This document shows, piece by piece, positions 4,453 through 33,362 of a stretch of 64,000 bases of DNA. The position numbers and the translations under genes are program-made. How positions within the stretch are numbered: position 1 is the first letter of the stretch; every line of letters begins with the position of its first letter. Source of the DNA: Synechococcus sp. MU1642 (lineage in GTDB: Bacteria > Cyanobacteriota > Cyanobacteriia > PCC-6307 > Cyanobiaceae); assembly GCF_020514115.1 (NCBI RefSeq), contig NZ_VTKZ01000003.1, positions 1 to 64,000 of the forward strand, given 5' to 3'. The notes below the pieces were generated by a model. The model had not been told where the DNA came from and made no database searches. It was given only the letters and a program-made list of their open reading frames with translations.

Positions 4453-4489
4453 TACGGGGTCGTGAGGGGTATCTCCCAAGCGCCCTAAC

Positions 4490-4561: not shown

Positions 4562-4684
4562 TTCTTTTGTACGGCCTCTGGTCGCTTGTATTAGCACCAT
4601 ATTTCCCTTGCATCTCCCTAATCCAGTCATGCTTTGCGTTAGATGCTTTTGTCAAGCCGTGTGGGTACGTAACCTTCCGCGTGG

Positions 4685-7720: not shown

Positions 7721-7727
7721 CGTTCCT

Positions 7728-8825
7728 TTATTCCCTCGGTCCCACCACCTGGAAGCCCTTGCGCTTCAGGTAGGCCTCCTTACGTGCTTCTTGTCGGTCG
7801 TGATCGATCATCTCGTTCACCATCTCTTCCAGGCTGGTGCTGGGTGTCCAGCCCAGTCTCTCTCTTGCTCTGGTCGGGTCACCGAGCAGGGTTTCCACTT
7901 CAGCCGGGCGGAAATAGCGCGGGTCGATCCGCACCACCACCTCACCATTGTCACTGCGGCGCCCCACTTCCTCAACGCCTTCTCCCACCCATTGCAATGC
8001 TCCCCAGCCCAGGGCGCTGGCCGAGAGTTCGATGAAGCGGCGTACTGATTCCTGGCGGCCGGTTGCAATTACAAAATCCTCGGGTTGCTTCTGTTGCAGC
8101 ATCCGCCATTGCATCTCCACGTAGTCGCGTGCATGGCCCCAGTCGCGTAGGGCATCGAGGTTGCCCATAAAAAGACACTCCTCGAGGTTCGCATCGATCC
8201 GGGCTAGGCCTCGGGTGATTTTGCGAGTCACGAAAGTTTCACCCCGGCGCGGTGATTCGTGGTTGAACAGAAGGCCGTTGCAGGCATACATGCCGTAAGC
8301 CTCCCGGTAGTTAACCGTGATCCAGTAGGCGTAAAGTTTGGCTACTCCGTAGGGGCTGCGCGGGTGGAAGGGAGTCGTTTCCCGTTGGGGGATCTCCTGC
8401 ACCAGGCCATAGAGCTCGGACGTTGAGGCCTGGTAAATGCGGGTTTTGTCGACCAGTCCGCAGATACGCACTGCTTCAAGGATGCGCAGTGTGCCCAGGG
8501 CATCCACGTTGGCGGTGTATTCCGGTGCCTCGAAGCTCACCGCCACATGGCTCTGGGCGCCCAGGTTGTAAATCTCATCGGGCTGAACCTGCTCAATGAT
8601 TCGCTGCAGGTTGCTGCCGTCGCTCAGGTCGCCGTAGTGCAGCGTCAGGCGTGGATCCAGCTCATGCGGATCCTGGTACAGGTGATCGATCCTTGTGGTG
8701 TTGAAGCTGCTGGCCCTGCGCTTGATGCCATGCACGGCGTAGCCCTTCTCCAACAGCAGCTCCGCCAGGTAGCTGCCGTCCTGGCCGGTGATGCCGGTGA
8801 TCAGGGCGTTTTTCCGGTTGCTCAT
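7728..8825 (-). CDS. gmd: GDP-mannose 4,6-dehydratase
   Basis: Converts GDP-D-mannose to GDP-4-keto-6-deoxy-D-mannose, the substrate of the next gene, fcl. The protein has 365 residues, normal for the family. It carries GITGQDG at 11-17 (nucleotide binding), STSELYG near 134-140 (catalytic Thr/Ser-Glu) and Tyr159-x3-Lys163 (YGVAK). I chose ATG 8825 (MSNRKNAL), where family proteins usually begin. ATG 8834 is equally possible, but the longer open frame to 9035 would run through the start of the divergent gene at 8892. No GDP-mannose-producing gene is in the window, so GDP-mannose must come from elsewhere. Confidence 0.95.
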
Positions 8826-17686: not shown

Positions 17687-18883
17687 GTGCGACTGCTGTT
17701 GGTTCATCAAAACTTTCCAGGCCAGTTTCGCCAGTTGGCGCCTCACCTTGAAAGCCGAGGACATGAGCTCGTTGCCATATGTAGTCACCAACGCCCCGTT
17801 GCTCTAAGGGGAAAAGTGCTGAGGTATGTCGAGCCCGAAAAACTTTCAGGATTGCCTCTTGGCACACAACTTTGGCACGATGGTCAGCAGCGCTCCGCTG
17901 CTGTTGCCGGGTTGGCCAATTGCCTGGCGGCGGAGGGCTGGAAGCCTGATCAAATCCTGGCTCATTCCGGTTGGGGAGAAACCTTGGGACTTTCAGCGAT
18001 CTGGCCTGATGTTCCCCAGATTCTCTGGCCCGAGCTCTGGATTCGTCCCGAGCATGGTGGTTATGGTGTTGACCCTCTGAAACCAAGGGTCACGCTTGAA
18101 AGCCAATTGGATCAGCTGGGCCGTAATGCCATGACCCGTGCGGCTCTGGCTGATGCCACGGCCTGGGTGATGCCCACGGAGCACCAGGCCAACAGCCTGC
18201 CCAGTGAGTTTCGTGACCAGCGGCTGCATGTGATACATGAAGGGATTGATACCCAGTTAGCCCAGCCGAATCCTGCGGTGACGTTTGCATTGCGCAGCAT
18301 CACAATTGATCGTTCGGTGCCCACAATCACACTAGTTAATCGCAACTTGGAGCGTTTGCGTGGATTTGATGTATTCATGCGTGCGCTCCCCACCATTCTT
18401 TCCAATCAGACGAATGCCCGGGTCTTGATTGTTGGTGATAACGAATCTGGCTATGGCGGAGAGGGAGGATCAATGTCTTTGCGTGAGCGCATGCTCAGGG
18501 AACTTGAGGGCAGATTGGATTTAGACCGCATTCATTTTCTCGGCCGGATACCCCATCCTCAGCTGATGGCAGTGTTGCAGGCAAGTTGGGTTCATGTTTA
18601 CCTCAGTTTTCCTTTTATTCTTGGTTGGAGTCTGATTGAGGCGATGGCCTGTGGTTGTTGCATTGTGGGCAGTCAGGGTATGCCCGTCTCCGAAGTGATT
18701 CAGGATGGGGTTGAAGGTGTAATGATCCCCATGAATTCTCCTGAACTTTTGGCTGACAAAGTCCTTCAGTTGTTGTCTAATCCTGAAGCGCGTGTTCGCT
18801 TCGGGAGAGCTGCCAGGAGGCGAGCGCTCCTCTATGACCAGCGCTTAACTCTGAATCAATTGTCAGAATTGTTGAATGCATGA
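17687..18883 (+). CDS. GT4-type glycosyltransferase, paralogue of 22904-24130
   Basis: A 398-residue GT-B enzyme. It starts at GTG 17687 (VRLLLVHQNFPGQFRQLAPHL), the Glyco_trans_4-like N-terminus in which NFP-x-Q-F-R forms the acceptor loop. The donor domain shows VNRNLERLRGFDVFMRAL near 220 and VHVYLSFPFILGWSLIEAMACGCCIV near 303-328. The matching protein at 22904 shares NFPAQFRRLAP, SRGFEEYRGF and YLTVPFVLSWSLLEAMAAGC, so the pair arose by duplication. The LGWSLIEAM form is the variant in which Ser-Leu replaces the usual Gly-Leu before the second Glu. Confidence 0.85.
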   Translation: MRLLLVHQNFPGQFRQLAPHLESRGHELVAICSHQRPVALRGKVLRYVEPEKLSGLPLGTQLWHDGQQRSAAVAGLANCLAAEGWKPDQILAHSGWGETLGLSAIWPDVPQILWPELWIRPEHGGYGVDPLKPRVTLESQLDQLGRNAMTRAALADATAWVMPTEHQANSLPSEFRDQRLHVIHEGIDTQLAQPNPAVTFALRSITIDRSVPTITLVNRNLERLRGFDVFMRALPTILSNQTNARVLIVGDNESGYGGEGGSMSLRERMLRELEGRLDLDRIHFLGRIPHPQLMAVLQASWVHVYLSFPFILGWSLIEAMACGCCIVGSQGMPVSEVIQDGVEGVMIPMNSPELLADKVLQLLSNPEARVRFGRAARRRALLYDQRLTLNQLSELLNA

Positions 18884-20059
18884 TGGGTAATCTGTGTGAT
18901 TTTTGCGGAGAAGTATTTCCTCAATTTGTTGCGCAGAGAGTTGCACGTCGAATTGTTCCCTAGCCCGTATGAGGCCCTTCTTTTGTAATGCATTGAGCAA
19001 TCCAGGATCATCAAACAGTCGCTTAATTTGTGTCGTCAGGCTATGTGCATTGCCTGCTTCAAATTGAAGTCCGCTTTTATTGTCTTCAAAGACTTCGCTT
19101 GCACCGCCTACCCCGCTGCTAAGAAGGACTAGTCCACTCGCCATCGCCTCTACGGCAACAATGCCAAAGGCTTCAGGGTGCATGGAGGGAAATACTGCAG
19201 CGTGGTGAAGGAGAAAGAACCGCGCAAGTTGATCGCGCGTCAATTGTTTGTAAAATGTAATTAAGTTATTGATTTTATTATCGACGCAAAAGGATTTCAT
19301 TGCTTTTACATAGCTCTTCTGGAAAGGTGCTCCGGCCAGACTTGCGCGAATGGGGTATCCCTGTTGATGTAGCTGGGCTATTGCTTCTAGGAGCGTGTGA
19401 GGTGCCTTGCTCTCCATTAGCAATCCTGCAAAGCAGAGATGCAGGGGTTTCCCCTTTATTCGGCAGGGAGGGTTTGGAGGTGCCCGGTGGATAGCCTCTG
19501 GGCCAAATAAATCAGTTCTTGCACCTGGGTACACAATTGTTGCGTTGGTTGCGCGGATACCTTCTTTGATCAGTCTGGTTTTAACTGCATGACTTGCTGC
19601 CAGAAGCTGGTAATTTTCGATGTTTGGTTGTTGTTCGACTGCATAAGGGCTTTGGACGAATCCGACGTGATGCAAAACCGGCAAGGTCCGATCTAGTAGC
19701 CAGTGGAGAAGCCCGACTCCGAGGAGATCAATATTTCCAAGAAGAATGCCGTCCCAGCGGTCTTTGCCCAACCACCGCTGAATTACAGCCTGATTGTGTA
19801 TGTCAACAGCGTTTTGCTCTGATGCGTTCTGCATCAGGTGCACGCCATCGCTGAAGTCTCCCTTCAGTAAGAGTTCGCGCGCAACGGGTTCTCCGCTGGG
19901 GCCGGTGGTGGAAGCTCTCCCTAGATAACTGGCGTCATTGCAGATCACCTGCAGTTGATGCCCCCTCTGTTTGAGCCCCCAGCAGAAATCCGCCATACAG
20001 CGCCCATAGCCTCCCAGCTCCTGTGGTGGGTACAGGTTGGTGATCAACAGCAACCGCAT
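18863..20059 (-). CDS. GT4-type glycosyltransferase
   Basis: A 398-residue GT-B enzyme. The N-terminus MRLLLITNLYPPQELGGYGR has the classic Pro-Pro then Gly-Gly acceptor loop. LCFAGLLMESKAPHTLLEAI near 210-228 and FPSMHPEAFGIVAVEAMASGLVLL near 300-323 form the donor site with Glu-x7-Glu. Length and order are typical of mannosyl- or glucosyl-transferases of surface polysaccharide clusters. It overlaps the preceding convergent gene by 21 bases. Its ATG lies 48 bases from the divergent gene at 20108, for which the longer reading would run through this N-terminus. Confidence 0.88.
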   Translation of the reverse strand: MRLLLITNLYPPQELGGYGRCMADFCWGLKQRGHQLQVICNDASYLGRASTTGPSGEPVARELLLKGDFSDGVHLMQNASEQNAVDIHNQAVIQRWLGKDRWDGILLGNIDLLGVGLLHWLLDRTLPVLHHVGFVQSPYAVEQQPNIENYQLLAASHAVKTRLIKEGIRATNATIVYPGARTDLFGPEAIHRAPPNPPCRIKGKPLHLCFAGLLMESKAPHTLLEAIAQLHQQGYPIRASLAGAPFQKSYVKAMKSFCVDNKINNLITFYKQLTRDQLARFFLLHHAAVFPSMHPEAFGIVAVEAMASGLVLLSSGVGGASEVFEDNKSGLQFEAGNAHSLTTQIKRLFDDPGLLNALQKKGLIRAREQFDVQLSAQQIEEILLRKNHTDYPSCIQQF

Positions 20060-20107
20060 CTGCGCCGACGGAAGGCCATAGGCTTCCCATTCAAAGGCAA
20101 GACACCG

Positions 20108-21685
20108 GTGGGTACACTCCCGGCACTGATTACAAGTGGCGACCTCCTTCCCGGAGGTGGGGCCCTGAATGGCCGCCGTTGGGCGGGCCAGCAGCTCCTC
20201 AAAAGCTGGGCAGCGCGCTCAGGCCACAGGCCCATGGCACTGGCTAGTCCCAGACCACAGGCACTCCAACAGTTGCTTCCTTTGTTGCGAGATCAGGGTT
20301 TTGAGGGTGAGCTCAATGGCTTGGATCTTCTTTCCCCGGAGGGTGTAATTCCATGGGGTGGCTTGTTTCTGCCAGACCCCTCCATTGCTCGCTGGGCTTT
20401 ATGGAGGCAACCAGTTGGGGCTTCTGCTTTTTCGCTGATCGGTCAGATTCACACCCTTTCCACTCCTGCTGCGCTGGCTCACCTCCAAGACCTGGCGAGT
20501 GAGCCAGTACATCCTTGGGATGCGTTGATATGTTCCAGCACGGCTGGGCGTTCTGTTGTTGAAGCTGTTCTCAACAGCAGGGAAGAAGCTCTTGCGGAAA
20601 GGTCCGGAGGAGATGTGTCGCGTCTTAGAGCATTACGACCTCAGCTTCCGGTCATCCCCCTGCCGCTACCCGATAGCGCTATGGCTGTGCCAGCACTCGA
20701 CAAACGGCAGGCGAGGAAGGCCCTGGATCTTCCAGAAAAAGCGTCAGTAGTGCTTTGGCTGGGACGACTTTCGGTTTATACAAAGCTCGACCCATGGCCG
20801 ACATACGCAATCCTGGAGCGAGTGGCTCAGCGGCTCAACAATCCACTTGTATTGCTGGAGTGTGGGCCCGATGACAAACCCTCACAGGAGCAGGCACTCC
20901 TTTCCTTGCGAAAGTGCTGTCCACATGTGCACTTCAAGCGCATGGGTGGTGATGAGCCGGTGAGCGAAGAATCCAAAAGGCAGGCGCTTTCCGCAGCTGA
21001 TCTTGCTTTGTCTCTGGTTGATAACACCCAAGAAACCTTCGGACTTTCTGTTGCTGAAGCGATGGCAGCGGGTTTGCCAGTCGTTGCCTCAAATTGGAAC
21101 GGTTACCGCGACCTGGTTCGGCACGGTCTTGATGGGTTTCTCGTTCCTAGTCGTTGGGCGTCTACGGCACCATTAGTTTCAGCACGTTTGGGTTGGCAGC
21201 AGTTTTCCGGGATTGAGAGTTTTCCTGTCGTGGCTGGTGCTCTGGCTCAGTTGGTACAGCTTGATGCTGATGCGGCAGAAAAGGCCCTGGTCTCTCTCCT
21301 GGCTAGCCCTTTGCTACTTCAGCGGATGGGTCGATCCGCATCAGCACGAGCCAATGAATTGTTTGCAGAGCATGTGGTGATGGATCAATACGAGGCATTG
21401 TTCGCCGAGCTTGAGCTGCGCCGCCTGGCTGCACCTGCGGAAGCTGGTAGTGGTCGAGCTATGCCAGCAAGCTTGGATCCGGTGCAAGCCTTTCAGGCTT
21501 ATCCGAGCCATCCCTCCCAACCTTCTGCTGGAAAAGAACCAGCCTCGGAACTTTTGGACCGGTTGCCCAAAAGCTTGTGCGAGGCTCGAGCGCCGTTATG
21601 GCGCCTTCTCAATGAATCCGTTCCTGCTGGCTTAAAGGGGGATTTGCATTCGGATTTGCTGAAGAAGCATCCTGTTCTCCCATGA
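20108..21685 (+). CDS. GT4-type glycosyltransferase with C-terminal extension, paralogue of 8892-10559
   Basis: A 525-residue GT-B enzyme. The start GTG 20108 (VGTLPALITSGD) is chosen by aligning GGALNGRRWAGQQLL to [13 protein letters not shown] of the paralogue at 8892 and because upstream starts would overlap the divergent gene. [18 protein letters not shown] near 216 and [25 protein letters not shown] near 300-325 are the GT4 donor site. About 100 further residues, rich in Ala/Ser/Pro, form a tail more degenerate than in the paralogue. The stop overlaps the ATG of the small membrane protein (ATGA), so the two are probably translationally coupled. Confidence 0.85.
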   Translation: MGTLPALITSGDLLPGGGALNGRRWAGQQLLKSWAARSGHRPMALASPRPQALQQLLPLLRDQGFEGELNGLDLLSPEGVIPWGGLFLPDPSIARWALWRQPVGASAFSLIGQIHTLSTPAALAHLQDLASEPVHPWDALICSSTAGRSVVEAVLNSREEALAERSGGDVSRLRALRPQLPVIPLPLPDSAMAVPALDKRQARKALDLPEKASVVLWLGRLSVYTKLDPWPTYAILERVAQRLNNPLVLLECGPDDKPSQEQALLSLRKCCPHVHFKRMGGDEPVSEESKRQALSAADLALSLVDNTQETFGLSVAEAMAAGLPVVASNWNGYRDLVRHGLDGFLVPSRWASTAPLVSARLGWQQFSGIESFPVVAGALAQLVQLDADAAEKALVSLLASPLLLQRMGRSASARANELFAEHVVMDQYEALFAELELRRLAAPAEAGSGRAMPASLDPVQAFQAYPSHPSQPSAGKEPASELLDRLPKSLCEARAPLWRLLNESVPAGLKGDLHSDLLKKHPVLP

Positions 21686-21945
21686 TGAATTTTTCTTTCC
21701 TCGTGCGTCTGCGCCACTGGTTCATCGTCAGCCGTTGGCAGAGATGGCTATTTCCAGTGTTGTGTTGCGTTCCCTATCTGGCAATCCTTTGCTGGCTGTT
21801 GATGTGCGGTCTCTACTGGGTCGCTCAGGTGCTTTTGGCGCCTCTCCTAATGGGTGCTGTACTCGCCGCTCTTACGCTTTGGTTGGCCCGCCAAGAATTC
21901 AGAACTCAGTTGCCTGGTCGTAAGATTTCTAGACGCATCGACTGA
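21682..21945 (+). CDS. Small two-helix membrane protein
   Basis: An 87-residue protein with a basic N-terminus, two probable membrane helices (about residues 23-45 and 47-68) and a basic tail (RKISRR). No family is recognised. It starts in an ATGA overlap with the upstream GT4 gene and stops three bases before the next GTG. It is therefore embedded in an operon between a transferase and the duplicated unknown protein. A membrane anchor or partner for the neighbours is possible but unsupported. Confidence 0.6.
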   Translation: MMNFSFLVRLRHWFIVSRWQRWLFPVLCCVPYLAILCWLLMCGLYWVAQVLLAPLLMGAVLAALTLWLARQEFRTQLPGRKISRRID

Positions 21946-21948
21946 TCT

Positions 21949-22890
21949 GTGTTCGAGCTTCCCACCAACCCTTGGACTCTTGCTGACCTCTCTGCTGGAT
22001 CGAGCAGAGATGTACTTGCTAAGTTCTGGCTTTCGGCTCCGGAAGATTTGCTTCCAAGCCTTTGGTCATCACCTGTTGGTGAATCCACCAAGCAACTGGT
22101 GCGACAGCTTGATCCTCAATATGTGTTCACTTCTGATCAAATAGCCCTGCGTAACGCCATAGGTAAGCGGTTTCAGGGCGGATTTCAGGCACCGATGGCC
22201 GTTCAGTTGTTGATCGTCAACTTCCTTTATTCCCCTCCTGGCCTTCTGCGTATTCAAAATCCAGAGGCCAATCTCCCGGGCTGGTTGCTGCCAGATTATC
22301 AATCGCTGTATGAGTCCGTTCCTTCAATGCCCGCAGCAGTGGCAGCGCCACCCGCCCCGGTTCCTGCCAAGGCCCAGCAGGTCCCTGAAACTCATCTCCC
22401 CCAACCTGATTTCGGGCTTTTTCCAACCACTCTCCAGGAATTGGTTGGTAACCGCATACAATTAAACCGTCTCCTAGGGCTGTCTAATCTCTATTACATA
22501 GATCCTGAAGATCAGGAAATTCTTCAGGAGCTACGCCAAGTGCGTCTTTCTTTAATTGAGGCTATCGGGCGTTGTCCTGAATCCGAGCTTGAGCAGCTAT
22601 GGGCAACCGATTTGGGTGATCGTTACTGGGCATTGGTGCGTTCCGGCATCCAAAAAGAGTCACTTACACCCGAAGAAGAGCGAAGAAAGCAGGCAGTCAT
22701 ACAAGCTCTTAATCCTGCGGCAGGTGGAGGGTTCGGCAGGCCTGGTGCTGTTAACGCCTTCCTGACTGCCATGGTTCTGTTCGAGCCTGGCACTATGCAG
22801 GTTGATGGTGCAGAGCAAAAAATACCGGGCTGGCTTCTTCCGCAGTATCAGCAGGTCTTCGCTGAGTCTCTCCCAGCCCAGTCAGCTTGA
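21949..22890 (+). CDS. Unknown protein with internal duplication
   Basis: A 313-residue soluble protein without a family I recognise. Two copies of one module are visible. FLYSPPGLLRIQNPEANLP then GWLLPDYQSLYESV (about 90-124) recurs as VLFEPGTMQVDGAEQKIP then GWLLPQYQQVFAESL (about 275-309). Each copy is preceded by a helical part with a conserved Asn/Arg (LRNAIGKRF, then GGGFGRPGAVN). An Ala/Pro-rich linker at about 125-145 separates the halves. The start is GTG 21949, three bases after the membrane protein stop. It sits between that gene and a GT4 gene 13 bases downstream, so a role in glycan assembly is plausible by context only. Confidence 0.65.
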   Translation: MFELPTNPWTLADLSAGSSRDVLAKFWLSAPEDLLPSLWSSPVGESTKQLVRQLDPQYVFTSDQIALRNAIGKRFQGGFQAPMAVQLLIVNFLYSPPGLLRIQNPEANLPGWLLPDYQSLYESVPSMPAAVAAPPAPVPAKAQQVPETHLPQPDFGLFPTTLQELVGNRIQLNRLLGLSNLYYIDPEDQEILQELRQVRLSLIEAIGRCPESELEQLWATDLGDRYWALVRSGIQKESLTPEEERRKQAVIQALNPAAGGGFGRPGAVNAFLTAMVLFEPGTMQVDGAEQKIPGWLLPQYQQVFAESLPAQSA

Positions 22891-22903: not shown

Positions 22904-24130
22904 ATGAGGATCCTATTTTCTCACAACAATTTTCCTGCTCAGTTCCGTCGACTCGCCCCTGCTCTTGCAGAGCAGGGGCACGATGTTGTTTTTTTGGCGC
23001 AAAACCGTGAGTGGCATGCTCCTCCGAATGATGGCGTAAGACTCAAGCAGTACTCGATTCATCGTCATGGTGGAGGAGAGGCTCTGCATCCTTACCTTCG
23101 GCGATTCGAATCCTGTGTTCTTCAGGGTCAGGCGGTCTATCGAGCTTGTGAGGACTTGAAGCAGGAGGGATGGGAGCCTGACTTGATTATTAATCATGTC
23201 GGTTTTGGAAACGGTCTCTACTTGAGTGATGCTTTTCCTCTGGCCCGAAGGATCGGTTTGTTCGAGTGGTACTACAACGCAAGTGGTGCCGATGTGGATT
23301 TTCTGCGCCGTGGACCGCTTGAGCCAGATAGGGCTCTGCGTTTGCGCACTTGGAATGCTCAGACGTTGCTTGAAATAGCTGACTGTGATTACGGCGTTGT
23401 GCCTACACACTGGCAGTTGAATCAGTTCCCGCCGCATCTGCGCTCTCGACTAAGTGTGATCCATGAAGGTATTGATGTAGATAATCTTTCCTTGCTAAAA
23501 ACAACTCCACGGATAAGGCCCTCGTGTCTGCCAAGTGGTTCTGAGGTTGAAGTCCTTACTTATGTGAGCCGTGGATTTGAGGAATACAGAGGTTTTCCGC
23601 AGGCGATGCAGGCAATTGCTTTACTGCAAGCCCAAAGGCCCCAATTGCATGCCTTGATTGTGGGTTCCGATGTTGTGGCTTATGGCGGTTCGCGCTCTGA
23701 TGGCCGTAGTTGGGGAGCGTGGGCTAAGGAAGATATCGGCCTCGACCCTCAGCGCACCCATTGGTTGGGTGCTCTTCAGACTGAGGAATACCACGATGTA
23801 CTTGCTATCAGTGATGTGCATCTCTATCTCACGGTGCCCTTTGTGCTGAGTTGGAGTCTCTTGGAGGCTATGGCTGCTGGTTGCGCGCTTGTTTGTAGTG
23901 CCACGCCTCCTGTGGAGGAAGTGCTAGAGCACAAAAGCTCGGCCCTCCTGGTTGACTTTTTTTCCCCCCAGGCGCAAGCAAAGGCCCTTGCTCTTCTGCT
24001 TGACAATTCAGATCTGCGTTTTGCCTTGGCTGCCGATGCCAAGAAGAGGGCGTCCGCATATCAGTGCGGGGATGGCCTGAAAGCCTGGATGCGACTCCTG
24101 TCTGGATACAGTGATCAAACCGCACCCTGA
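22904..24130 (+). CDS. GT4-type glycosyltransferase, paralogue of 17687-18883
   Basis: A 408-residue GT-B enzyme starting at ATG 22904 (MRILFSHNNFPAQFRRLAP), with an AGGGA-like site just upstream. The N-terminal domain has LINHVGFGNGLYLSD near 100, probably part of the acceptor pocket. The donor domain shows YVSRGFEEYRGFPQAMQAI near 222 and YLTVPFVLSWSLLEAMAAGCAL near 310-332. Family relatives of this N-terminal type occur near surface-protein genes, but the substrate is unknown. It is the last gene before the beta-roll gene. Its stop codon lies in the loop of a small hairpin (24122-24136). Confidence 0.86.
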   Translation: MRILFSHNNFPAQFRRLAPALAEQGHDVVFLAQNREWHAPPNDGVRLKQYSIHRHGGGEALHPYLRRFESCVLQGQAVYRACEDLKQEGWEPDLIINHVGFGNGLYLSDAFPLARRIGLFEWYYNASGADVDFLRRGPLEPDRALRLRTWNAQTLLEIADCDYGVVPTHWQLNQFPPHLRSRLSVIHEGIDVDNLSLLKTTPRIRPSCLPSGSEVEVLTYVSRGFEEYRGFPQAMQAIALLQAQRPQLHALIVGSDVVAYGGSRSDGRSWGAWAKEDIGLDPQRTHWLGALQTEEYHDVLAISDVHLYLTVPFVLSWSLLEAMAAGCALVCSATPPVEEVLEHKSSALLVDFFSPQAQAKALALLLDNSDLRFALAADAKKRASAYQCGDGLKAWMRLLSGYSDQTAP

Positions 24131-24263: not shown

Positions 24264-26480
24264 ATGACCTCGAGCTACAACTCCATTCAAGGGACAGACT
24301 CCGCGAACACCCTCATTGGTTCGACTGGAGCTGATTCTTTTGTTGCCCTTGATGGCAACGACAACGTTTTAGCGGCGCAAAGTAACGACATCGTTGATCT
24401 TGGCGACGGTCAAGATTCCGTGAGCTTCAACGAAGACGCAGATGGCGCAACTATTTATGGCCGCGGCGGTAATGACTCCTTAGGAATTACCGTTGCCTTC
24501 GATTCTTCTACTGCTTCCGGCGGTGAAGGTAACGACACCATCTGGCTCTCCCGTGGTGCATCCCAAGTTGTCTATGGCGATGCGGGCAATGACAGCCTTG
24601 AGATCAAAATGGGTCTCACCAATGCTTCCGTTTACGGCGGCAATGCCTCGACAGCTACCTCTACAGACGGAAACGATTCAATCGTTCTGTCCTCCTCCGT
24701 TTCTGCCAGTTTTGTTCAGGGCAACGGCGGCAATGACACCATGTACGTCGGCAGCTCCGTCTTCGGCGGTAGCAGCATCTACGGCGGTCAGGGCGTTGAC
24801 TTGATCTCGGCTGTCGGCAGTGTTGTCGGTTCGACTGTGGGCGGCAACCTTGGTACAGATACTCTCGAATTCGAAAACGTCGTTAAGGGCTCTGCCATCT
24901 ACGGCGGTGGCGGTTTCCAGTACGACACCTCTCTGGATGGTGCTGACAGCATCAGCTTGGGTTCCAAGCTCAGTGCCAGCAGCTTGATTCAGGCCAATGG
25001 TGGTAACGACACCATCTACATCGCGGACGACGTTCTCGGCTCCACCGTTTATGGCGGCCAAGGTACTGACACCATCCAAGGTGCGGCTGCTACCTCTACC
25101 CAGTCGTTGTCTGGTTCCCTGATTGCAGGTAACCGCGGTAATGACAAGATCCTGTTCAACAGCACTTACTCGATCTTCAATACTGAGGTTTACGGTTCGG
25201 ATTCGACAGGAACCCTGTCTGGAAATGATTCGATTCAGCTGGCAGGTAACACTGTCCAGACCTCAACCGTTTACGGCGGTGCAGGTAACGACACCATCTT
25301 CGTTGGTAACTACACCACGCCTGCTAGCGCACAAATCCTGAAAGTTGATGTTGGTGCCTTCGCTGGCGCTGACTCCATCCAAGTTGGTGGCTCGTTCGTT
25401 TCTTCCACTGTCAATGCTGGTGCTGGCAACGACACGATTGCTATCAAAGCGACAACCGGTACTTCCTCTTCGACTGCTACTGAGTTCTACGCAGGCGCGG
25501 GTGCTGACTCTGTGTTGATCGCAGATGGTCAAAACCTGACCATCTACGGTGACACTTCTGCAGCAGATACAGCAGGTGGTGCTGACTCGCTTCAGATCAC
25601 AGATCTGACTTCTTCCACCGTTTACGGTGCAGCTGGTGGTGACACCCTCAATGTTGCTGCCGTAAGCAACTCCCGCATCGATTTGGGAGCCGGTACCAAC
25701 TACGCAACTGGCGCTGGTACTTACACCAGTTCCACCCTGATCGGTGGTGACGCAGTCGACAAGCTGTTTGTCCACAAATTCACCGGTGGTGGTCTTGTTT
25801 CTGCTGGTGCAGGCGCTGACTCCATCGTCTTTAACGGCTCAGTCACTGGTAAGGATGCAACTACCAAGGCAACTGTCCTTGGTGGTACTGGTGCCGACAC
25901 TCTCGATTTCAACGGCGCTATTTCCTACGCCACCATCCTTGGTGGTACTGACTCCGCCGGTCTGATCGAGGCCGCTGCTGTGAGGACTTCCACGCTGCGC
26001 GGTGGTACTGGAAACGACACGATTTCCTTCTCCGGCAAAGTCACTAGTGCACTTGTGGCTGGTGGCAGCGGTGCTGACTCCTTCAGCTTCTCTGGCCAGA
26101 CCTCAACTGACATCCTTGCTGGCGCGGGCAACGACTCCGTTGTCTTCAGTGGAACTGTCGCTAATGCTTCCACTACTTACTACTTCGGTAAGACCGACGG
26201 TAAGGACACCCTTGCCTTCGGAGCATTCACTTCAGCTGCCAACGTCGTCGTCGCTGTCGATGCTGCCTATGGTGCAACCTCAGGTATCCAGTTCAGTGGT
26301 GACCTTGATGCTGGAACAGGTACTTCCGGTACCATTACCTTCAACAATGCTGAGGCTGGAGTTGCAACAGGTACTTTGTTCCTGAACAACGTAACCGGCT
26401 CCAGTGAGGCAGCAGGTGCAGGTCTGACCAGCATCACCTTCGTGACTGTTTCCACGGCTACCATCACAGCCCTTGGCTGA
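24264..26480 (+). CDS. Secreted RTX-like beta-roll repeat protein
   Basis: A 738-residue protein built almost entirely of repeats with the core G-G-x-G-N/A-D-T/S-I/L (for example YGDAGNDSLEI, QGNGGNDTMYV, YGGQGTDTIQG, AGAGNDTIAI, GGTGADTLDF). These are the nonapeptide-type calcium-binding units of RTX proteins, spaced about 25-45 residues with VYGG/IYGG blades between. It has no N-terminal signal peptide and no cysteine, is rich in Gly/Ser/Thr/Ala/Asp and is nearly devoid of Arg. This fits calcium-dependent folding after type I secretion. The last 60 residues are less repetitive, hydrophobic/Thr-rich and end ITALG, a plausible C-terminal secretion signal. C- and T-ending codons (AAC, GAC, GGC, GGT) suggest high expression. 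The secretion genes lie downstream at 32631-37589. An S-layer or SwmA-like surface protein is the best guess. Confidence 0.88.
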   Translation: MTSSYNSIQGTDSANTLIGSTGADSFVALDGNDNVLAAQSNDIVDLGDGQDSVSFNEDADGATIYGRGGNDSLGITVAFDSSTASGGEGNDTIWLSRGASQVVYGDAGNDSLEIKMGLTNASVYGGNASTATSTDGNDSIVLSSSVSASFVQGNGGNDTMYVGSSVFGGSSIYGGQGVDLISAVGSVVGSTVGGNLGTDTLEFENVVKGSAIYGGGGFQYDTSLDGADSISLGSKLSASSLIQANGGNDTIYIADDVLGSTVYGGQGTDTIQGAAATSTQSLSGSLIAGNRGNDKILFNSTYSIFNTEVYGSDSTGTLSGNDSIQLAGNTVQTSTVYGGAGNDTIFVGNYTTPASAQILKVDVGAFAGADSIQVGGSFVSSTVNAGAGNDTIAIKATTGTSSSTATEFYAGAGADSVLIADGQNLTIYGDTSAADTAGGADSLQITDLTSSTVYGAAGGDTLNVAAVSNSRIDLGAGTNYATGAGTYTSSTLIGGDAVDKLFVHKFTGGGLVSAGAGADSIVFNGSVTGKDATTKATVLGGTGADTLDFNGAISYATILGGTDSAGLIEAAAVRTSTLRGGTGNDTISFSGKVTSALVAGGSGADSFSFSGQTSTDILAGAGNDSVVFSGTVANASTTYYFGKTDGKDTLAFGAFTSAANVVVAVDAAYGATSGIQFSGDLDAGTGTSGTITFNNAEAGVATGTLFLNNVTGSSEAAGAGLTSITFVTVSTATITALG

Positions 26481-26512: not shown

Positions 26513-26538
26513 GGGGTCCTTCGGGGCCCCTTTTTTTT
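26513..26538 (+). terminator. Intrinsic terminator with UUCG tetraloop
   Basis: GGGGTCC (26513-26519) pairs with GGGCCCC (26524-26530), seven pairs with one G-U, across the loop TTCG closed by C-G, a very stable tetraloop. A run of eight T follows. It lies 32 bases after the beta-roll stop and should end that transcript, isolating the abundant message from the GT41 gene. Confidence 0.93.
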
Positions 26539-28702
26539 GTATCAACAACTTTCAGCATGGCCTGATCAACTCAATCGAGAAGACCTGATCAACTCCAATG
26601 AGTTGAGGGACGATCAGAAAGCAGCAGGTTTGTATCGGTTGGGGGATGTTGAGCGCGCCGAGTCGTTGCTAATCGCTTTTCTAGCTGATCTTTCGAAATC
26701 AAAGCAACTTTCCCCCCTGGCTCTCCTTGCTTGGATTCGTCTAGACAGTCGCGAACTCTCTGGATTTCTGTCCGTTTTCCGTACTTTGCAGCGTAATTGG
26801 CCAGATCAGCCTGAAGTTAGAGCATTGATGTTCAGTTTTTTACTAGTGAAAGGTCGTGGGCATACCATCAAAACTGAACCTTCCCAATGGCTGACTCTTT
26901 CAGACCCTCAGCTGCGTCAGTTTTTCCAAATTTTGCATGCAGAATGGTTGATTGTTGGAGGTCGTTTTCCGGAGGCAAGATCATGGTTGGATAAGTCTCT
27001 GCAAGAAAAATCCCTCGAAGCTTCTATCCTTGTGGCTCGATGTGAGAAGGCAGAGGGGAATCTTGTTACTGCATTGAGTAGTTTTACAGACCTTTTAGAG
27101 CGTGCTCCTTCGCATTTTCAGCTATGGCTCTATGCCTTAGAAACTGCACTTGATGCCAGGCATTCCGAAGCTGTACTGGCGTTAGCAAGGCAGGCAATGG
27201 AGAGGTTTGGTGAAAATCATCGCCTCCTGCAACATCTGACTCCGATCAAAATGTTGCAGAGACAACCAGGGCTAGCACGACGCAGTGCTTTATTGCAGCA
27301 ACTCTGGACAACCACTTTGCAATTGCCCTTCACTCGTCTAGGGAATCAACTTAACTCCTATGAGCATAATGGTGATACTCATTGGTTGAAATATCTCAAA
27401 CCTTCTATTCTTGCAAATCCCCTTTCGGCACAACAGGAATATAGTAACTATATGCTGCAGTTGGCCAGCATTGAATCAACTAAGTATGAAGAGGCGAATC
27501 AAAGGTATATTTCTGCATTGCGACAGTGTGATCAATTTCAGCGATGTCGTGATGTAGGTATTACTACATCTCAGCTACAGCTCCGTCCAGCAAAAAGTTT
27601 GCGTATTGGATGGATCACTGGTGACCTTTCTCCTCACCCCGTGAGTCGCTTTCTTCTCGGTTTTTTTAATGCGTTTGAAAATGAGACGGCCCAGCATCAA
27701 CATCATCTAATCAATGTAATAGATCATGGTCCGCAATCATGCACTGATTGGTTTGAGCCTTTACAGTCCATAAATTTGACCGATATCTCTGCATTTTCGG
27801 TTGAACGTAAGGTTGATGTTGTGAGGGATTTGGATCTTGATCTTGCGATTGATTTATCTGGTTGGACCTCAGGTCATTTCCTCGCCGGCTTTCTAGCTAA
27901 ATTGGCACCTGTGCAATGCAGCTACCTCGGATTCTTTGCATCCACTGGGATTCAAGAGATCGATTATTGGCTCGGTGATTGGAGTTTGTTCCCTAAGGAC
28001 TATGTTGGCTGGCATACAGAGACTCTTTGGAGGCTTGATCGTCCGTTCCTTGCATGGCAGCCTGTCGATCCATTACCGGAAGCTACGGCTGATGTGACCT
28101 CAGCCCCATCTGGTCCGATTCGCTTTGGTTCCTTTAATCACAATCGCAAGCTTTCTGACAAAACTCTGAGGCTTTGGGGAAGAATTCTTGATTCTGTTCC
28201 TGAATCTACTCTGGTCTTGAAGGCCACTACTTCTTCGGATCAGCCCACTCAGCAGTTGCTTCGGCGTCGAATGCTTCGTGTTGGTCTTGACCCTGAACGT
28301 ATAACTTGGTTACCCCTCACAGCCGGTCATACCGAGCACTTGCAGCAATATCAGCATATTGATATTGCTTTGGACCCTCTACCCAATGGGGGATGTACCA
28401 CTACATGTGAGGCGTTATGGATGGGAGTGCCCGTGATTACAACAGCTGGAGATTCTTATGTCAGTCGTATGAGTACCGCTGTATTGAATGGGTGTTCTCT
28501 GCACGATTGGGTCGCGACGAATGAGCGCTCCTATCTGAACTTGGCAATTAAGCACGCTACTAATCTTAAATACCTCCGTGCGAATAGAGATCTCTGGCGA
28601 CATAAGATTCAAAATAGCCTGCTTGGTGATGCCGCTGATCTAATGCACCATCTCGAGCAGGCCTTTACCGAAATGGTTAAGGCAAAATTTAATAGGGGTT
28701 AA
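26537..28702 (+). CDS. O-GlcNAc-transferase-like (GT41) protein
   Basis: A 721-residue protein in this reading. About the first 330 residues are helical, with weak TPR-like repeats (for example RAPSHFQLWLYALETALDARHSEAVLAL). The GT41 catalytic region follows: RIGWITGDLSPHPVSRF near 355 with the conserved His-Pro, APVQCSYLGFFASTG near 457, RFGSFNHNRKLSD near 528 with the Lys matching the UDP-contacting Lys of human OGT, and ALDPLPNGGCTTTCEALWMGVPV near 610. GT41 enzymes glycosylate protein Ser/Thr. The start is unresolved: TTG 26537 lies in the T tract of the terminator and no ATG follows in frame for a long way, so TTG about 26603 is an alternative. It follows the beta-roll gene, a candidate acceptor. 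Confidence 0.85.
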   Translation: MYQQLSAWPDQLNREDLINSNELRDDQKAAGLYRLGDVERAESLLIAFLADLSKSKQLSPLALLAWIRLDSRELSGFLSVFRTLQRNWPDQPEVRALMFSFLLVKGRGHTIKTEPSQWLTLSDPQLRQFFQILHAEWLIVGGRFPEARSWLDKSLQEKSLEASILVARCEKAEGNLVTALSSFTDLLERAPSHFQLWLYALETALDARHSEAVLALARQAMERFGENHRLLQHLTPIKMLQRQPGLARRSALLQQLWTTTLQLPFTRLGNQLNSYEHNGDTHWLKYLKPSILANPLSAQQEYSNYMLQLASIESTKYEEANQRYISALRQCDQFQRCRDVGITTSQLQLRPAKSLRIGWITGDLSPHPVSRFLLGFFNAFENETAQHQHHLINVIDHGPQSCTDWFEPLQSINLTDISAFSVERKVDVVRDLDLDLAIDLSGWTSGHFLAGFLAKLAPVQCSYLGFFASTGIQEIDYWLGDWSLFPKDYVGWHTETLWRLDRPFLAWQPVDPLPEATADVTSAPSGPIRFGSFNHNRKLSDKTLRLWGRILDSVPESTLVLKATTSSDQPTQQLLRRRMLRVGLDPERITWLPLTAGHTEHLQQYQHIDIALDPLPNGGCTTTCEALWMGVPVITTAGDSYVSRMSTAVLNGCSLHDWVATNERSYLNLAIKHATNLKYLRANRDLWRHKIQNSLLGDAADLMHHLEQAFTEMVKAKFNRG

Positions 28703-30854
28703 TGTCTTGCCTTAGAGTCTTGTAAATCTTCTCTAGCTCACTGCTTAGTCTCGCTCCATCTGCAAGTTTAGATCTCTCCAGAATTTTTCTTAATTGCAAT
28801 CTTTTTTTGCTGGTTCTTGGCCCTTGTGATTCAAGGTTTTTTGCGATGTTCACGAATTGATCGTTGTTGTTTGCGACCCAACGCTCACATCCTGCATAGT
28901 GCAGCAGGCTCGCTGATAGTCGACCAACCATTCCTTCTCCTCTCATGCTGACAACTGGCACCCCCATCCACATGGCTTCCGCTGTTGTGGTTGCCCCGCC
29001 ATAGGGAATAGGATCCAGGGCTACATCCATGTGACGATAAAGCTGTAGGTGGTTAATTCCCCCTTCAATCCAATCCAGCAGGATTAAGCGATCAGTTGCG
29101 AGTCCTGCCTTTTTAAAACGACTGCGTATCCGGTTTTTTTCTGCCGCTTCATGGAAGCTGATACTTTTGAGTATTAGTTCAGCATTTGGGCAGGAACTCA
29201 TCACGGCGCAGAATAGATCAATACTTGCATCACTAAGCTTGCGTGCGTGGTTAAAGCTGCCGAAGCGAAAGCGCTCACAAGGCTCACGCACTGGCAATGG
29301 AAGGGTTCCGCACGGATCAAATACCATGTATCCACCTTCAATGTTAATTAGTCGATGGGCCTTATTATCTACTTGCGATAGCCCATCAAACAACACCTTG
29401 TCTCCTAGCCATCCATCAATGCACTTGAGATAGGTTGGTGCTGGGAAACCTAAGTAACTTAATTGGATAGGAGCTGGTCGATGGACAAGAATTCCTATTC
29501 GTGATCCACTTGTGTATCCCCCTAACTCCACCAGTACATCCAAACGTAGGTCAGCAATTAATCTTGCCGATAATGCATCGTTGTGAAATTTGCAATCTAG
29601 CCAGTGATCACAATGTTCTTTAAGATGCTCGCTGACCCAATCATGGTGATGCCCGCAATTAATTCCCCAAATCTCAAAGTCATTACAATCATGATTTTTG
29701 AGAATTGGGAGCAAAAAACGTCCAACAGGATGGTTGCAGAAATCAGCAGATAAGTAGCCAATTCTTAGTCGCCGTCCTGTGTGGGGTTCTAGAAGCAAGT
29801 CTGGCCAAAGAGGTCCGTAACTTTTCTTCTTCTGCCCGTCCTCCCAATGCTTAGCCCACTCGAGTCGCCTTTCGCATAGCTCGTCTGATTGTGTTTGGCT
29901 TAGACTTAAGAATTGGCGATTGAAGAGTTGTTCGCTGCTCTTTATGTCAGTATCAAACCCTCGAAATGCGCATATTTTTCGAGCAGCTTCTAAATTACAC
30001 ATTTCACATAGAGCTTGCTCTAGTGCCAGCCACAGATTGTTGTCATTTGGGTTGTATTGCAGCCCTCGCTTCAAAATCAGCGCGGGAGCTACCGTGAACT
30101 TCAGGCTCTTGAGGCTGGCGGCCCAATTCAGCCAGTGTTCAGGCTTTCCTGGAGAGTCTCCAGCAAGCTCTGCCAGGATATGACTAGCTGTCACGCAGTC
30201 GCCTTCAGCCATCCTCAAATCTGCTACTGCCTTGCGGATATCAGGATGCTTTTGCTGAAACTTGCTAAGAGAATCAACCAAGGTTTGCGCGGCTTGGAAT
30301 TCGCCCTGTTGCTTAAGGATGGTCAAGAGATTGGCCTTGGCATGGGGCTGGTCTGGATTGATTGAAAGCACTTTCCGATAGCAGTCTTTGCTTTCTTCGA
30401 GCTTTTCTGCGCGGGCATGAATAAGCCCCAGGCCCATCCAGCTTTGGATACGACTTGTATCTGATTGGACAATTGCCTCGTAAACGACGATTGCTTCAGC
30501 TGTCTCGCCTGCCATAGCGAGAGTCTCTGCTAGCGATTCTCGAAGCTCTGTATCGGTAGGTTCTGCATTTAGTGCGTGCCGTAACCAATGCAGTGCTGCT
30601 GCGCTCTCACCCGTTTCCCTCCAGCAGTTGCAGGCATTGAGAATCAGCTTCCGCTGACCCGGCATTCGCTTTAAGCAACGGTGATAATGTGAGCTGCCTT
30701 CACGAAGTCTCCTTTGGCTGCGGAGCAACGCTCCGAGATTGACCGCAACATCGGGATCATCTCCCTGCTCAAGGAGAATCCGGTACGAGAATTCTGCTTC
30801 GACCAAGCGCCCCTCTGAATGGGCCTGCAGCGCTTTTGTTTTTATGTCTTCCAT
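28689..30854 (-). CDS. TPR plus O-GlcNAc-transferase-like (GT41) protein
   Basis: A 721-residue protein. Residues 1-300 hold about seven tetratricopeptide repeats (DVAVNLGALLRSQRRLREGSSHYHRCL, RIQSWMGLGLIHARAEKLEESKDCYRKVL). The catalytic half has RIGYLSADFCNHPVGRF near 365, RPAPIQLSYLGFPAPT near 465, FRFGSFNHARKLSD near 535 and ALDPIPYGGATTTAEAMWMGVPVV near 620. The NHP His and FNHxxK Lys match the OGT family. I chose ATG 30854. It converges on the other GT41 gene with a 14-base overlap. Its first codons overlap those of the divergent gene at 30844 by 11 bases. The two GT41 proteins differ enough to suggest separate substrates. Confidence 0.88.
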   Translation of the reverse strand: MEDIKTKALQAHSEGRLVEAEFSYRILLEQGDDPDVAVNLGALLRSQRRLREGSSHYHRCLKRMPGQRKLILNACNCWRETGESAAALHWLRHALNAEPTDTELRESLAETLAMAGETAEAIVVYEAIVQSDTSRIQSWMGLGLIHARAEKLEESKDCYRKVLSINPDQPHAKANLLTILKQQGEFQAAQTLVDSLSKFQQKHPDIRKAVADLRMAEGDCVTASHILAELAGDSPGKPEHWLNWAASLKSLKFTVAPALILKRGLQYNPNDNNLWLALEQALCEMCNLEAARKICAFRGFDTDIKSSEQLFNRQFLSLSQTQSDELCERRLEWAKHWEDGQKKKSYGPLWPDLLLEPHTGRRLRIGYLSADFCNHPVGRFLLPILKNHDCNDFEIWGINCGHHHDWVSEHLKEHCDHWLDCKFHNDALSARLIADLRLDVLVELGGYTSGSRIGILVHRPAPIQLSYLGFPAPTYLKCIDGWLGDKVLFDGLSQVDNKAHRLINIEGGYMVFDPCGTLPLPVREPCERFRFGSFNHARKLSDASIDLFCAVMSSCPNAELILKSISFHEAAEKNRIRSRFKKAGLATDRLILLDWIEGGINHLQLYRHMDVALDPIPYGGATTTAEAMWMGVPVVSMRGEGMVGRLSASLLHYAGCERWVANNNDQFVNIAKNLESQGPRTSKKRLQLRKILERSKLADGARLSSELEKIYKTLRQDINPY

Positions 30855-32631
30855 CGCGAGCAAATCGCAGTCAAGTCCCAACGCCGCATCTTATGGAGAA
30901 GCACAAGACTGGATGCGCTCCTTCGAGCGTCTTGGAAAGGGTGAGCTGAGCCCTGATCAGGCTATTCAGCAGGCTAGCCAGGCAATTCTTGCAACTGGCC
31001 TTCTGCAGTGGTCCATGCCATTTGCACTGGGCTTGTGGATGAACAAGCGATATGTCGACGCTCTTGAGGTCTTGCAAAGGCCCGGTGTCGAGTCGTCTTG
31101 TGGTCATATGGCCTATTTTCACATCCTGATGGGAATGGTGGCCAGACAGGTCAAAGGGAAGCATCAACTTGCTTGCATGTCCTATCAACGTGCACTACAA
31201 ATTGAACCCGATCGGCATGATGCTCTTTATAATTTGGCAAATCTTATCAAGGATGATGCGCCTGAGGAGGCTGATAAATTATATAGACGCAGTCTGATTG
31301 TTAATCCTGAGTCGGCTCCAGTGTGGCATAATTTAGGAGCAAATTTAACTTCGCTGAATCGACCTCTCGAGGCTATTAGACCTCTGAAAACAAGTTTGCA
31401 AATCGATGCACTTAATCCTGAAGTGTGGTGCAATTTAGGATTGGCTTTTTACGCTGCTGAAGATTTTGTGAGGGCTGAGCGCTCCTTCCGCCACACCATT
31501 GCTCTTGATTCCAGGCATTCGCCGGGATATCAAAACCTCGGTAACACTTTAATTAATGTTTTAAAGGCTGAAGAAGCGATAGAAATACTTGAGAAAGGTC
31601 TTGAACTTGATTCGAGTTCAACGCATTCGTTGTGGAATCTATCGTTGGCTTATCTACTTTTGGGTCGTTATAAAGACGGTTGGCGTTATTACGAATCGCG
31701 ATTCAATTGCCCGGATTTTAAGGATGTGAAGCCACCAACATCCGGCCCTCCTCTTCAAAGTCTCGCTGAGGCTCCAAGAGCTGGTGAAGAGTCTTTGGTT
31801 GTGTGGGGTGAGCAGGGGTTAGGAGATGTTATTCAGTTTTGTAGATATCTCCATTTGCTTGAAGCAGCTTCCATCAATTTTGTCTTTATGGTTAGGTCTT
31901 GTCTGGTCTCTCTAGTCAGGGATTGGACTGGTTATGGAGAGAGAGTTCAGCCTTTTGATGGTTGCTACCGTGATGATGATTCAAGGTCACATGTGGCACT
32001 AATGAGCCTACCGGCCCTTTTCTCAACTGAGTTGCACACAGTGCCATCACATGTGCCTTATTTACGCACAACTCAGCGCTGTCCTGAACACCTGCAAGTT
32101 GAGCCGCCTCCGGGGGGAATGAGTGTAGGTTTGGTATGGGCTTCTAATCCAGACAACAAAGCGATGTATCGCAACAAGAGTATGCCGCTTACTGTTTTGA
32201 TGCCTATCCTCACAGATTTGTTGCACTTAGGTCTCATTGAACTTCATTCATTGCAGTTCGGTCAAGATGCGGATCAGTTAGAGCCCTGGCTTGACGTCGA
32301 TGGGGTTAAAGATTGGCATTTAGATCTAAACGACTTTTCTGATACTGCTCATCTTGTACAACAGTTAGACCTTGTTATTTCCGTTGATACGGCTGTCGCT
32401 CACCTGGCAGGAGCTCTAAATTGTCCGACATGGTTACTTCTTCCTCAAAATGCTGATTTTCGTTGGCTGAAGGGCAGGTCAGATTCTCCCTGGTATCCCT
32501 CCATGCGTCTTTTTCGTCAACGTCAGCAGGGTGATTGGTCCGGTGTTGCGGAGGATCTCCGCATTGCATTTGAGGACTTAACCTTGCTGGATTTCAGGGC
32601 TCTGGCAAACGATCTTCCTGCCTATAAGTGA
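30844..32631 (+). CDS. TPR protein with GT9-like C-terminal domain, first gene of the secretion operon
   Basis: A 595-residue protein. Residues about 85-300 carry six or more tetratricopeptide repeats (ALYNLANLIKDDAPEEADKLYRRSL, PGYQNLGNTLINVLKAEEAIEIL). The GT9-like part starts with SLVVWGEQGLGDVIQFCRYL near 315. It continues with SVGLVWASNPDNKAMYRNKSM near 422, SVDTAVAHLAGALNCPTWLLL near 512 and the end motif MRLFRQRQQGDWSGV. I chose ATG 30844, which overlaps the divergent GT41 start; ATG 30913 is an alternative. Its stop overlaps the ATG of the PpiC-like gene (TGATG), so this transferase is translationally coupled to the secretion machinery. This is the best direct hint that the secreted protein is glycosylated. 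Confidence 0.85.
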   Translation: MSSIASKSQSSPNAASYGEAQDWMRSFERLGKGELSPDQAIQQASQAILATGLLQWSMPFALGLWMNKRYVDALEVLQRPGVESSCGHMAYFHILMGMVARQVKGKHQLACMSYQRALQIEPDRHDALYNLANLIKDDAPEEADKLYRRSLIVNPESAPVWHNLGANLTSLNRPLEAIRPLKTSLQIDALNPEVWCNLGLAFYAAEDFVRAERSFRHTIALDSRHSPGYQNLGNTLINVLKAEEAIEILEKGLELDSSSTHSLWNLSLAYLLLGRYKDGWRYYESRFNCPDFKDVKPPTSGPPLQSLAEAPRAGEESLVVWGEQGLGDVIQFCRYLHLLEAASINFVFMVRSCLVSLVRDWTGYGERVQPFDGCYRDDDSRSHVALMSLPALFSTELHTVPSHVPYLRTTQRCPEHLQVEPPPGGMSVGLVWASNPDNKAMYRNKSMPLTVLMPILTDLLHLGLIELHSLQFGQDADQLEPWLDVDGVKDWHLDLNDFSDTAHLVQQLDLVISVDTAVAHLAGALNCPTWLLLPQNADFRWLKGRSDSPWYPSMRLFRQRQQGDWSGVAEDLRIAFEDLTLLDFRALANDLPAYK

Positions 32632-33362
32632 TGTTATTTCACCAAATACTTAGCGATGCTGATGTACTTTCTTTGGTCCGGCGCATGGAGATGGAGCCCA
32701 AACTCCTCCGCCGTCATCTTGAAGAACAGATAGTTGCATTAGTTCCTCTCGAGGAGTCCTGGCTGCAAGAGACACGTTGCGACTTTTTGAACGGTCGCAC
32801 GGAGGAAGATTATCTTCAAGAGAACGGTTGGACTAGTAATGATCTTGAGCTTCATTTACGTAGGCCTGAAGCGTTGCGACGTTTTGCTCACCAACGTTTT
32901 GCTCCAGGTCTTGAAGAACGATTTCTTGCGTCTAAGGGCTCCCGTGATCTCGTGATCTACTCCTTGTTACGAGTTAAGGATTACGCACTTGCGCGTGAGC
33001 TGTGGATTCGTCTTGAGGAAGATGAGACTACTTTCGCAGAGGCTGCCAGAGCCTTTGGTGAAGGTCCCGAAGCAGACAGGCAGGGAGTCATTGGCCCAAT
33101 TCCGATCGGTGCGCTTCAGCCGGCCCTTCTGCAGGATATTCTTCGCGGACTAAAAGCCGGTGAACTGTCACCTCCTATTGGTCTAGGCGAATGGCAAATT
33201 CTTCTACGTCTTGAGAAGCTGACCCCGACCCGTTTGGACGACCAGGTACGTGAACAGATGATTCAGGAGTCGCTGGATCAGTTCTTGGACGAGCGTGTAA
33301 TGAAGATCAGGGCTGGCGAGGGTGACTCCTTAGACCCCTTTCACTACGATCATGAGTCATGA
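32631..33362 (+). CDS. PpiC-like peptidyl-prolyl isomerase of the type I secretion operon
   Basis: A 243-residue protein with a helical SurA-like N-terminal half and a parvulin (rotamase) domain at about 110-210. Motifs are TTFAEAARAFGEGPEADRQGVIGPI, then LQPALLQDILRGLKAGELSPPI, then EWQILLRLEKLTP. No signal peptide or membrane helix is seen, so it probably acts in the cytoplasm. I recall PpiC-like genes beside type I secretion ABC genes in cyanobacteria, which suggests a chaperone-like role on the substrate before export. It starts at ATG 32631 inside the upstream stop and ends in an ATGA overlap with the ABC transporter. Confidence 0.85.
   Translation: MLFHQILSDADVLSLVRRMEMEPKLLRRHLEEQIVALVPLEESWLQETRCDFLNGRTEEDYLQENGWTSNDLELHLRRPEALRRFAHQRFAPGLEERFLASKGSRDLVIYSLLRVKDYALARELWIRLEEDETTFAEAARAFGEGPEADRQGVIGPIPIGALQPALLQDILRGLKAGELSPPIGLGEWQILLRLEKLTPTRLDDQVREQMIQESLDQFLDERVMKIRAGEGDSLDPFHYDHES

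Follow-up and report, generated by a model that had tools for sequence, protein, structure and literature searches.

The window examined here is a stretch of 64,000 nucleotides from Synechococcus sp. MU1642 (contig NZ_VTKZ01000003.1, positions 1 to 64,000). It holds a glycosylation cluster in which glycosyltransferase genes surround the gene for a 313-aa protein with two related modules, with genes for an RTX-like protein and its presumed exporter further downstream:

17690 to 18883, plus strand: GT4 glycosyltransferase of the PF12000 type (Pfam); the listed open reading frame starts at 17558, and relatives adjoin a second stand-alone type of module protein
18863 to 20059, minus strand: GT4 glycosyltransferase (Pfam, similarity); the orthologue is fused to module copies in genomes G053 (one copy) and G095 (three copies)
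19955 to 21685, plus strand: GT4-type protein with an Ala/Pro-rich C-terminal tail (listed open reading frame; the true start is probably later)
21682 to 21945, plus strand: 87-aa protein with two hydrophobic stretches, by eye (open reading frame, locus comparison)
21949 to 22890, plus strand: double-module protein, 313 aa, GTG start (open reading frame; no enzyme domain found)
21997 to 22317, plus strand: module copy 1, without the first helix of the full module (jackhmmer profile, predicted helices)
22318 to 22428, plus strand: Ala/Pro-rich, predicted flexible linker (AlphaFold2 model, composition)
22429 to 22884, plus strand: module copy 2, the full module (jackhmmer profile, predicted helices)
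22904 to 24130, plus strand: GT4 glycosyltransferase, PF12000 N-domain plus PF00534 (Pfam, locus comparison)
24264 to 26480, plus strand: RTX-like repeat protein, presumed secreted substrate (HemolysinCabind at 22.4 bits against a cut-off of 23; NF046115 far below cut-off)
26537 to 28702, plus strand: GT41 glycosyltransferase with one weak TPR match (Pfam, locus comparison)
28689 to 30881, minus strand: TPR plus GT41 glycosyltransferase (Pfam, locus comparison)
33359 to 36352, plus strand: ABC exporter of the type I secretion kind, cNMP_binding plus ABC_membrane plus ABC_tran (Pfam, flank comparison)
36315 to 37589, plus strand: HlyD-type membrane fusion protein (Pfam, flank comparison)

A preliminary description had set the 313-aa protein in a transferase operon beside a two-helix membrane protein. 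Pfam identifies the surrounding transferases as glycosyltransferases, and the membrane protein corresponds to the 87-aa product, whose two hydrophobic stretches were recognised by eye. In the protein encoded at 19955 to 21685, a possible docking tail of about 40 residues, again delimited by eye, follows the Ala/Pro-rich linker.

Two copies of one module

The motif reported earlier to recur about 185 residues apart was found as LPGWLLPDYQ at residue 109 and IPGWLLPQYQ at residue 292, a spacing of 183 residues, and the linker described as Ala/Pro-rich has Ala or Pro at 16 of 33 positions (residues 124 to 156). Residues 1 to 129 align with residues 151 to 313 at a Smith-Waterman score of 136, with 33 of 99 aligned residues identical, a score reached by none of 2000 shuffles (mean, 29.2; standard deviation, 5.0; maximum, 62). 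Copy 2 alone, used as a query against frames of the fetched loci, retrieved copy 1 at an i-E of 1.4e-10 as well as frames of other loci, and profiles of the two copies built from 12 orthologous proteins matched each other with 99.5% probability (E = 3.8e-23).

An AlphaFold2 model, computed from 47 two-copy rows of the fetched loci, has a mean pLDDT of 86.4. The predicted helices of copy 1 (residues 16 to 29, 32 to 39, 42 to 52, 62 to 75, 84 to 93, 105 to 108, and 114 to 122) recur in matching order in copy 2 (residues 189 to 208, 211 to 218, 221 to 231, 241 to 254, 267 to 277, 288 to 291, and 297 to 305), which has two extra helices absent from copy 1, a first helix at 169 to 184 and a short one at 162 to 166. 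By sequence, the 313-aa protein is two diverged copies of a helical module of ~130 residues joined by an Ala/Pro linker; the alignment score and the predicted helix order both bear out this earlier view, and neither membership of a known enzyme family nor a difference in fold between the halves, which had been named as grounds for giving it up, was found. The pseudo-dimer that structure prediction was expected to reveal or dismiss is not supported by the model. Because pLDDT falls below 50 at linker residues 130 to 146 and pTM is 0.55, the relative position of the two domains is not fixed in the model, which suggests beads on a flexible string, each half being confidently predicted and their arrangement left undefined by the linker.

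The protein had been called unrecognised, a label that holds: Pfam and NCBIfam searches returned no family, no glycosyltransferase domain, and no TPR family, and the PDB sequences contained no credible relative. Weak matches to MphA (0.08, NCBIfam) and to a macrolide phosphotransferase (0.41, PDB) were rejected as noise, and profile matches of the module to designed helical repeats in the PDB (E = 0.004) were rejected as repeat artefacts, as no single stretch passes. Fold searches of the two-module model against the PDB were likewise negative, with a best Foldseek E of 1.9 and a best VIA Z of 5.8 (karyopherins), the latter within that tool's own common range for helical models; HMW1C was absent among the matches listed.

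A family of free and enzyme-fused modules

For the search among cyanobacterial genomes that had been proposed as a check, we used a module profile of 50 copies (A1; cut-off E ≤ 0.001), matched over the ~133 positions of the module (R...W, LPxWLL). Both window copies, themselves rows of the profile, match it (122 and 166 bits). It found the module in 32 of 291 genomes, one match being false (ribosomal protein L18 in G215) and another weak (G061, E = 4e-4), though within a GT2 protein. A protein search hit 15 of 59 related genomes, 12 of which belong to the genus of the window (its own genome counted), and jackhmmer over the loci fetched by then converged at 111 rows, query included. None of the 50 copies matched NCBIfam at E 0.01; in Pfam the best E was 0.0098, to an unrelated family, and neither a TPR nor HMW1C_N was among the 15 families listed at E ≤ 1. 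No plasmid copy was found in 72,556 records, and among the papers that searches of open-licence PMC listed, no title or displayed opening of an abstract described this module.

The window protein belongs to a picocyanobacterial family (f1) of free double-module proteins of two types, with open frames of 303 to 424 aa; one frame of 716 aa (L094) belongs to a gene that probably starts later. Outside this family, the protein search and the module profile together gave 48 frames; all were retrieved, and 47 were counted after removal of the ribosomal L18 match. A glycosyltransferase or methyltransferase domain is present in 45 of the 47, on the evidence of Pfam in 23 and of similarity to the GT41 proteins of the window in 22. 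The other two are L080, whose residues 1 to 388 resemble a GT-A enzyme by eye, and a frame at 3804 to 5465 of locus L036, which is 93% identical to the final 555 residues of L081, a GT4 protein with three modules, and is therefore taken to be a truncated GT4-module protein. The module recurs in two positions, either singly, immediately ahead of a GT41 catalytic domain (19 rows aligned), or as one to four C-terminal copies. At locus L036 (genome G053), four of five neighboring open reading frames within 12.3 kb carry it (1, 3, 1, and 1 copies): a GT2-GT4 protein, a module triplet with a GT4 relic, a methyltransferase, and a GT2-GT41 protein, with a 277-aa frame that has no module between the first two.

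The four groups of copies (free copy 1, free copy 2, copies before GT41, and tail copies) match one another in all six profile pairs, with probabilities of 98.5 to 100%. These comparisons give good support to a single family that takes in both free halves and the modules attached to GT2, GT4, GT41, and methyltransferase enzymes. In a quick tree of 109 copies, which rests on few columns and has many unresolved forks, 22 copies from before GT41 fall on one side of a single branch (support, 73), and the first copies of both free types, together with one of locus L042, form a group of 21 rows (support, 90); since the first copies of both types group together, the doubling looks old.

The giant multidomain glycosyltransferases of other cyanobacteria bear the same module, in one to five copies and in frames of up to 3268 aa, with Pro-rich linkers between those tail copies that were read by eye. 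They carry it in cis on one or several enzymes, whereas in the window it is free. One module-bearing glycosyltransferase frame in genome G056 (L035, 2276 to 4108) appears by eye to pass into an unrelated frame shortly past the module and so looks truncated; an intact relative lies ~9 kb away.

From this distribution we propose, with a probability of about one-half, that the window protein works in trans as a non-catalytic docking or scaffold component of machinery for protein glycosylation. The module family is well supported, and docking is the function that we infer for it. The protein probably holds such sugar-attaching enzymes, or their target protein, together during glycosylation of a secreted surface protein.

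The module beside GT41 catalytic domains

An alternative that we regard as unlikely is acceptor recognition, in which the module would present a protein or glycan acceptor to the glycosyltransferases, as the all-alpha domain (AAD) of HMW1C-type enzymes does in cis. N-glycosyltransferases (NGTs) are described as having this distinct domain in place of the TPRs of O-GlcNAc transferases (OGTs) (PMC10507012, PMC3983070); in AaNGT, by the account in PMC10507012, it recognises the acceptor peptide, with Arg177 and Asp215 recognising the acceptor Thr. The HMW1C-like enzymes, also GT41, have their all-helical domain directly before GT-B, the position that the module takes in the 19 aligned proteins. 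The AlphaFold2 model of one such protein (L047, 593 aa; pLDDT, 87.4; pTM, 0.86) superposes end to end on 3q3e and 8p0q; over the HMW1C/NGT structures, residues 1 to 593 are matched, with 507 to 529 residues aligned, an rmsd of 3.8 to 4.3, and Z of 31.9 to 32.9. Because the catalytic part comprises residues 225 to 593 (369 residues), at least 138 helical residues match HMW1C/NGT.

Structures with TPRs also match. XcOGT, T. terrenum OGT, and SPINDLY give the best Z (34 to 37), above HMW1C, and animal OGT gives about 28 to 31. These TPR O-GlcNAc transferases and SPINDLY, GT41 enzymes of protein glycosylation with a helical repeat region, span a Z of 27.9 to 37.0 for the module+GT41 model, but no Pfam model identifies the module as a TPR. 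Their coverage is 416 to 463 residues for SPINDLY and human OGT, starting at residue 46 or later, 456 for T. terrenum OGT, and 448 to 480 for XcOGT. The window's own GT41 enzymes carry TPRs (one of them weakly) and the module is separate, whereas 12 of 13 module+GT41 frames scanned with Pfam have no TPR at E ≤ 0.001.

Sequence homology of the module to HMW1C_N was looked for with PF18071 and by profile comparison and was not found. The GT-B parts of the module+GT41 protein and the HMW1C-like enzymes are related (profile probability, 99.8%), and only GT-B aligned confidently; the module and the HMW1C_N helical domain gave a probability of 0.1 to 0.7%, and the helical part of HMW1C-like enzymes has no detectable sequence similarity to the module. 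PF18071 matched in none of the 59 related genomes, the window's own included, in none of 14 control genomes, and in 3 of 386 genomes of the phylum, one of them above cut-off (G380). Since the profiles are dissimilar and the two-module model found no PDB fold, we see in the AAD a possible structural counterpart and not a proven relative; the modelled link between the two is suggestive only. The free protein also differs from HMW1C-like enzymes in having no catalytic domain, two module copies, and no equivalent of the second helical stretch that, in fused proteins, separates the module from GT-B. Judging from numbering only, AaNGT residues 177 and 215 probably fall after the module, in the region that is absent from the free protein. 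Binding of enzymes is favored over binding of acceptors because methyltransferases and GT2 enzymes carry the module too, and because tandem copies occur in tails remote from any catalytic domain.

Three other proteins of ~600 aa with a GT41-like catalytic half were observed at L106 (7352 to 9202, minus strand) and L105 (7660 to 9438 and 4373 to 6175). The first two match HMW1C_N weakly (~22 bits), and the third is 63% identical to the one in L106; a cyanobacterial branch of HMW1C-like enzymes is possible. In genome G174, the gene for such a protein lies ~10 kb from that for a giant module protein.

Gene partners and a proposed docking role

Type-1 loci, to which the window belongs, usually have the order two-helix protein, module protein, GT4 (PF12000), RTX-like protein, GT41, GT41. 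The stop codon of the module gene lies −4 to +18 bp from the aligned GT4 start in 12 of 12 loci; in a thirteenth, L042 (G032, 7122 to 8035), the module gene is split into two frames and the adjacent GT4 aligns in one piece. In 8 of 13 loci, among them that of the window, a two-helix gene immediately precedes the module gene; in L029 the match lies at a greater distance, and L032, L033, L034, and L042 gave none. RTX-like matches, which rest on repetitive sequence searched without a low-complexity filter, occur in all 13, with L032, L033, L034, and L042 not in the usual order. Among the downstream flanks of six genomes, the exporter (68 to 78% identity), HlyD, and PPIC genes are kept in five; the sixth (G032) has a partial exporter match (54% over 724 residues) and an HlyD match of 33%, and no PPIC match is listed. 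In type-2 loci, the gene beside the module gene is similar to the GT4 gene at 17690 to 18883 in 8 of 8 cases, in L045 by a 60-bit match alone.

The two-helix gene and the module gene of the window share a reading frame, with one TGA stop and one further codon between the former and the GTG of the latter (21943 to 21949). A read-through fusion of the two products was considered and rejected; L030 and L037, the loci compared, do not keep the frame, which is accordingly taken as chance. In L034, a contig titled Crocinitomicaceae (Bacteroidota) carries a picocyanobacterial module-GT4 pair with RTX-like genes; the contig was possibly misassigned in a metagenome bin.

The module protein could instead be a dedicated partner or activator of the adjacent GT4 (22904 to 24130), serving its folding or activity with no wider scaffold role, a reading suggested by the overlap or close spacing of the two genes at all 12 loci and by the pairing of the second stand-alone type with another PF12000-type GT4. 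Co-occurrence within the genus agrees: closely related copies of this GT4 are present in 5 of 34 genomes (G006, G009, G021, G032, and the window's), exactly those with a type-1 module protein, at 43 to 60% identity for the other genomes and at least 331 bits, with the remaining genus matches at 40% identity and 267 bits at most and the 43% line chosen after the list was seen. We nevertheless consider this quite unlikely, since elsewhere the module is attached to GT2, GT41, methyltransferases, and a different GT4 type and hence is not specific to one enzyme. The docking reading has points against it as well. No PF12000 domain, the type of the closest gene partner, turned up in the 26 fused frames to which Pfam was applied. 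Outside the genus, seven genomes have the GT4 at 43 to 46% identity, and protein and profile searches found a free double-module protein in none of them, so this type of GT4 needs no free module; four of the seven (G052, G053, G056, and G058) have fused modules. Genes of one cluster may also travel together without their products touching.

A second GT4 of the window ties the cluster to the fused modules. The protein encoded at 18863 to 20059 is this genome's best match to the three-module GT4 L081 of G095 (260 bits, next best 42; 39% identity), and its type bears one module in L036 of G053. At E 1e-40, this type is found in 6 of 59 genomes, with the module in 5 and without it in G044 (33%).

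The preliminary description had suggested a new adaptor or carbohydrate-binding repeat. The adaptor half of that suggestion gains from the fusions to glycosyltransferases and methyltransferases and from the coupling to the GT4 gene; carbohydrate binding, for which one could cite the location in a glycosylation cluster and the conserved Trp and Tyr, is very improbable, as nothing else points there: Pfam and NCBIfam give no CBM or lectin match, the prediction is all helical, and in our judgement the conserved W, P, R, and G look structural.

In the docking reading that we prefer, a putative cytosolic, non-catalytic protein would use two modules on a flexible linker to bind the GT4 encoded at 22904 to 24130 and other enzymes of the cluster, as the equivalent in trans of what fused modules would do in cis. 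The enzymes would be kept together while a protein acceptor, most likely the downstream RTX-like protein, is glycosylated, and the glycosylated protein would then leave through the type I ABC/HlyD exporter. GtfB, of the GtfA/GtfB pair, is a non-catalytic, GT-like partner of a GT4 that glycosylates a large exported surface protein. The module protein would likewise be a non-catalytic partner of a GT4, but it is predicted to be all helical and has no glycosyltransferase domain. We also entertain, tentatively and as somewhat unlikely, a broader scheme of docked assembly lines, comparable to the joining of modular synthases by docking domains, in which the module repeated on neighboring GT2, GT4, methyltransferase, and GT41 enzymes of a cluster would connect them by module-module or module-enzyme contacts and picocyanobacteria would have split the line, keeping the module as a free two-headed connector.

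To our knowledge, the wiring of island glycosyltransferases and giant surface proteins has not been worked out. The glycosyltransferases of genomic islands in marine Synechococcus have been suggested to help avoid grazers and phages (PMC2441476), and giant surface proteins have been suggested to serve motility and grazing evasion (PMC4949707). With these findings, an unannotated family shared between picocyanobacterial glycosylation clusters and large glycosyltransferases from other cyanobacteria acquires a testable role. Should the module dock enzymes, the decoration of large secreted surface proteins ahead of export would have an explanation, and the construction of glycosylation pathways would gain a modular handle.
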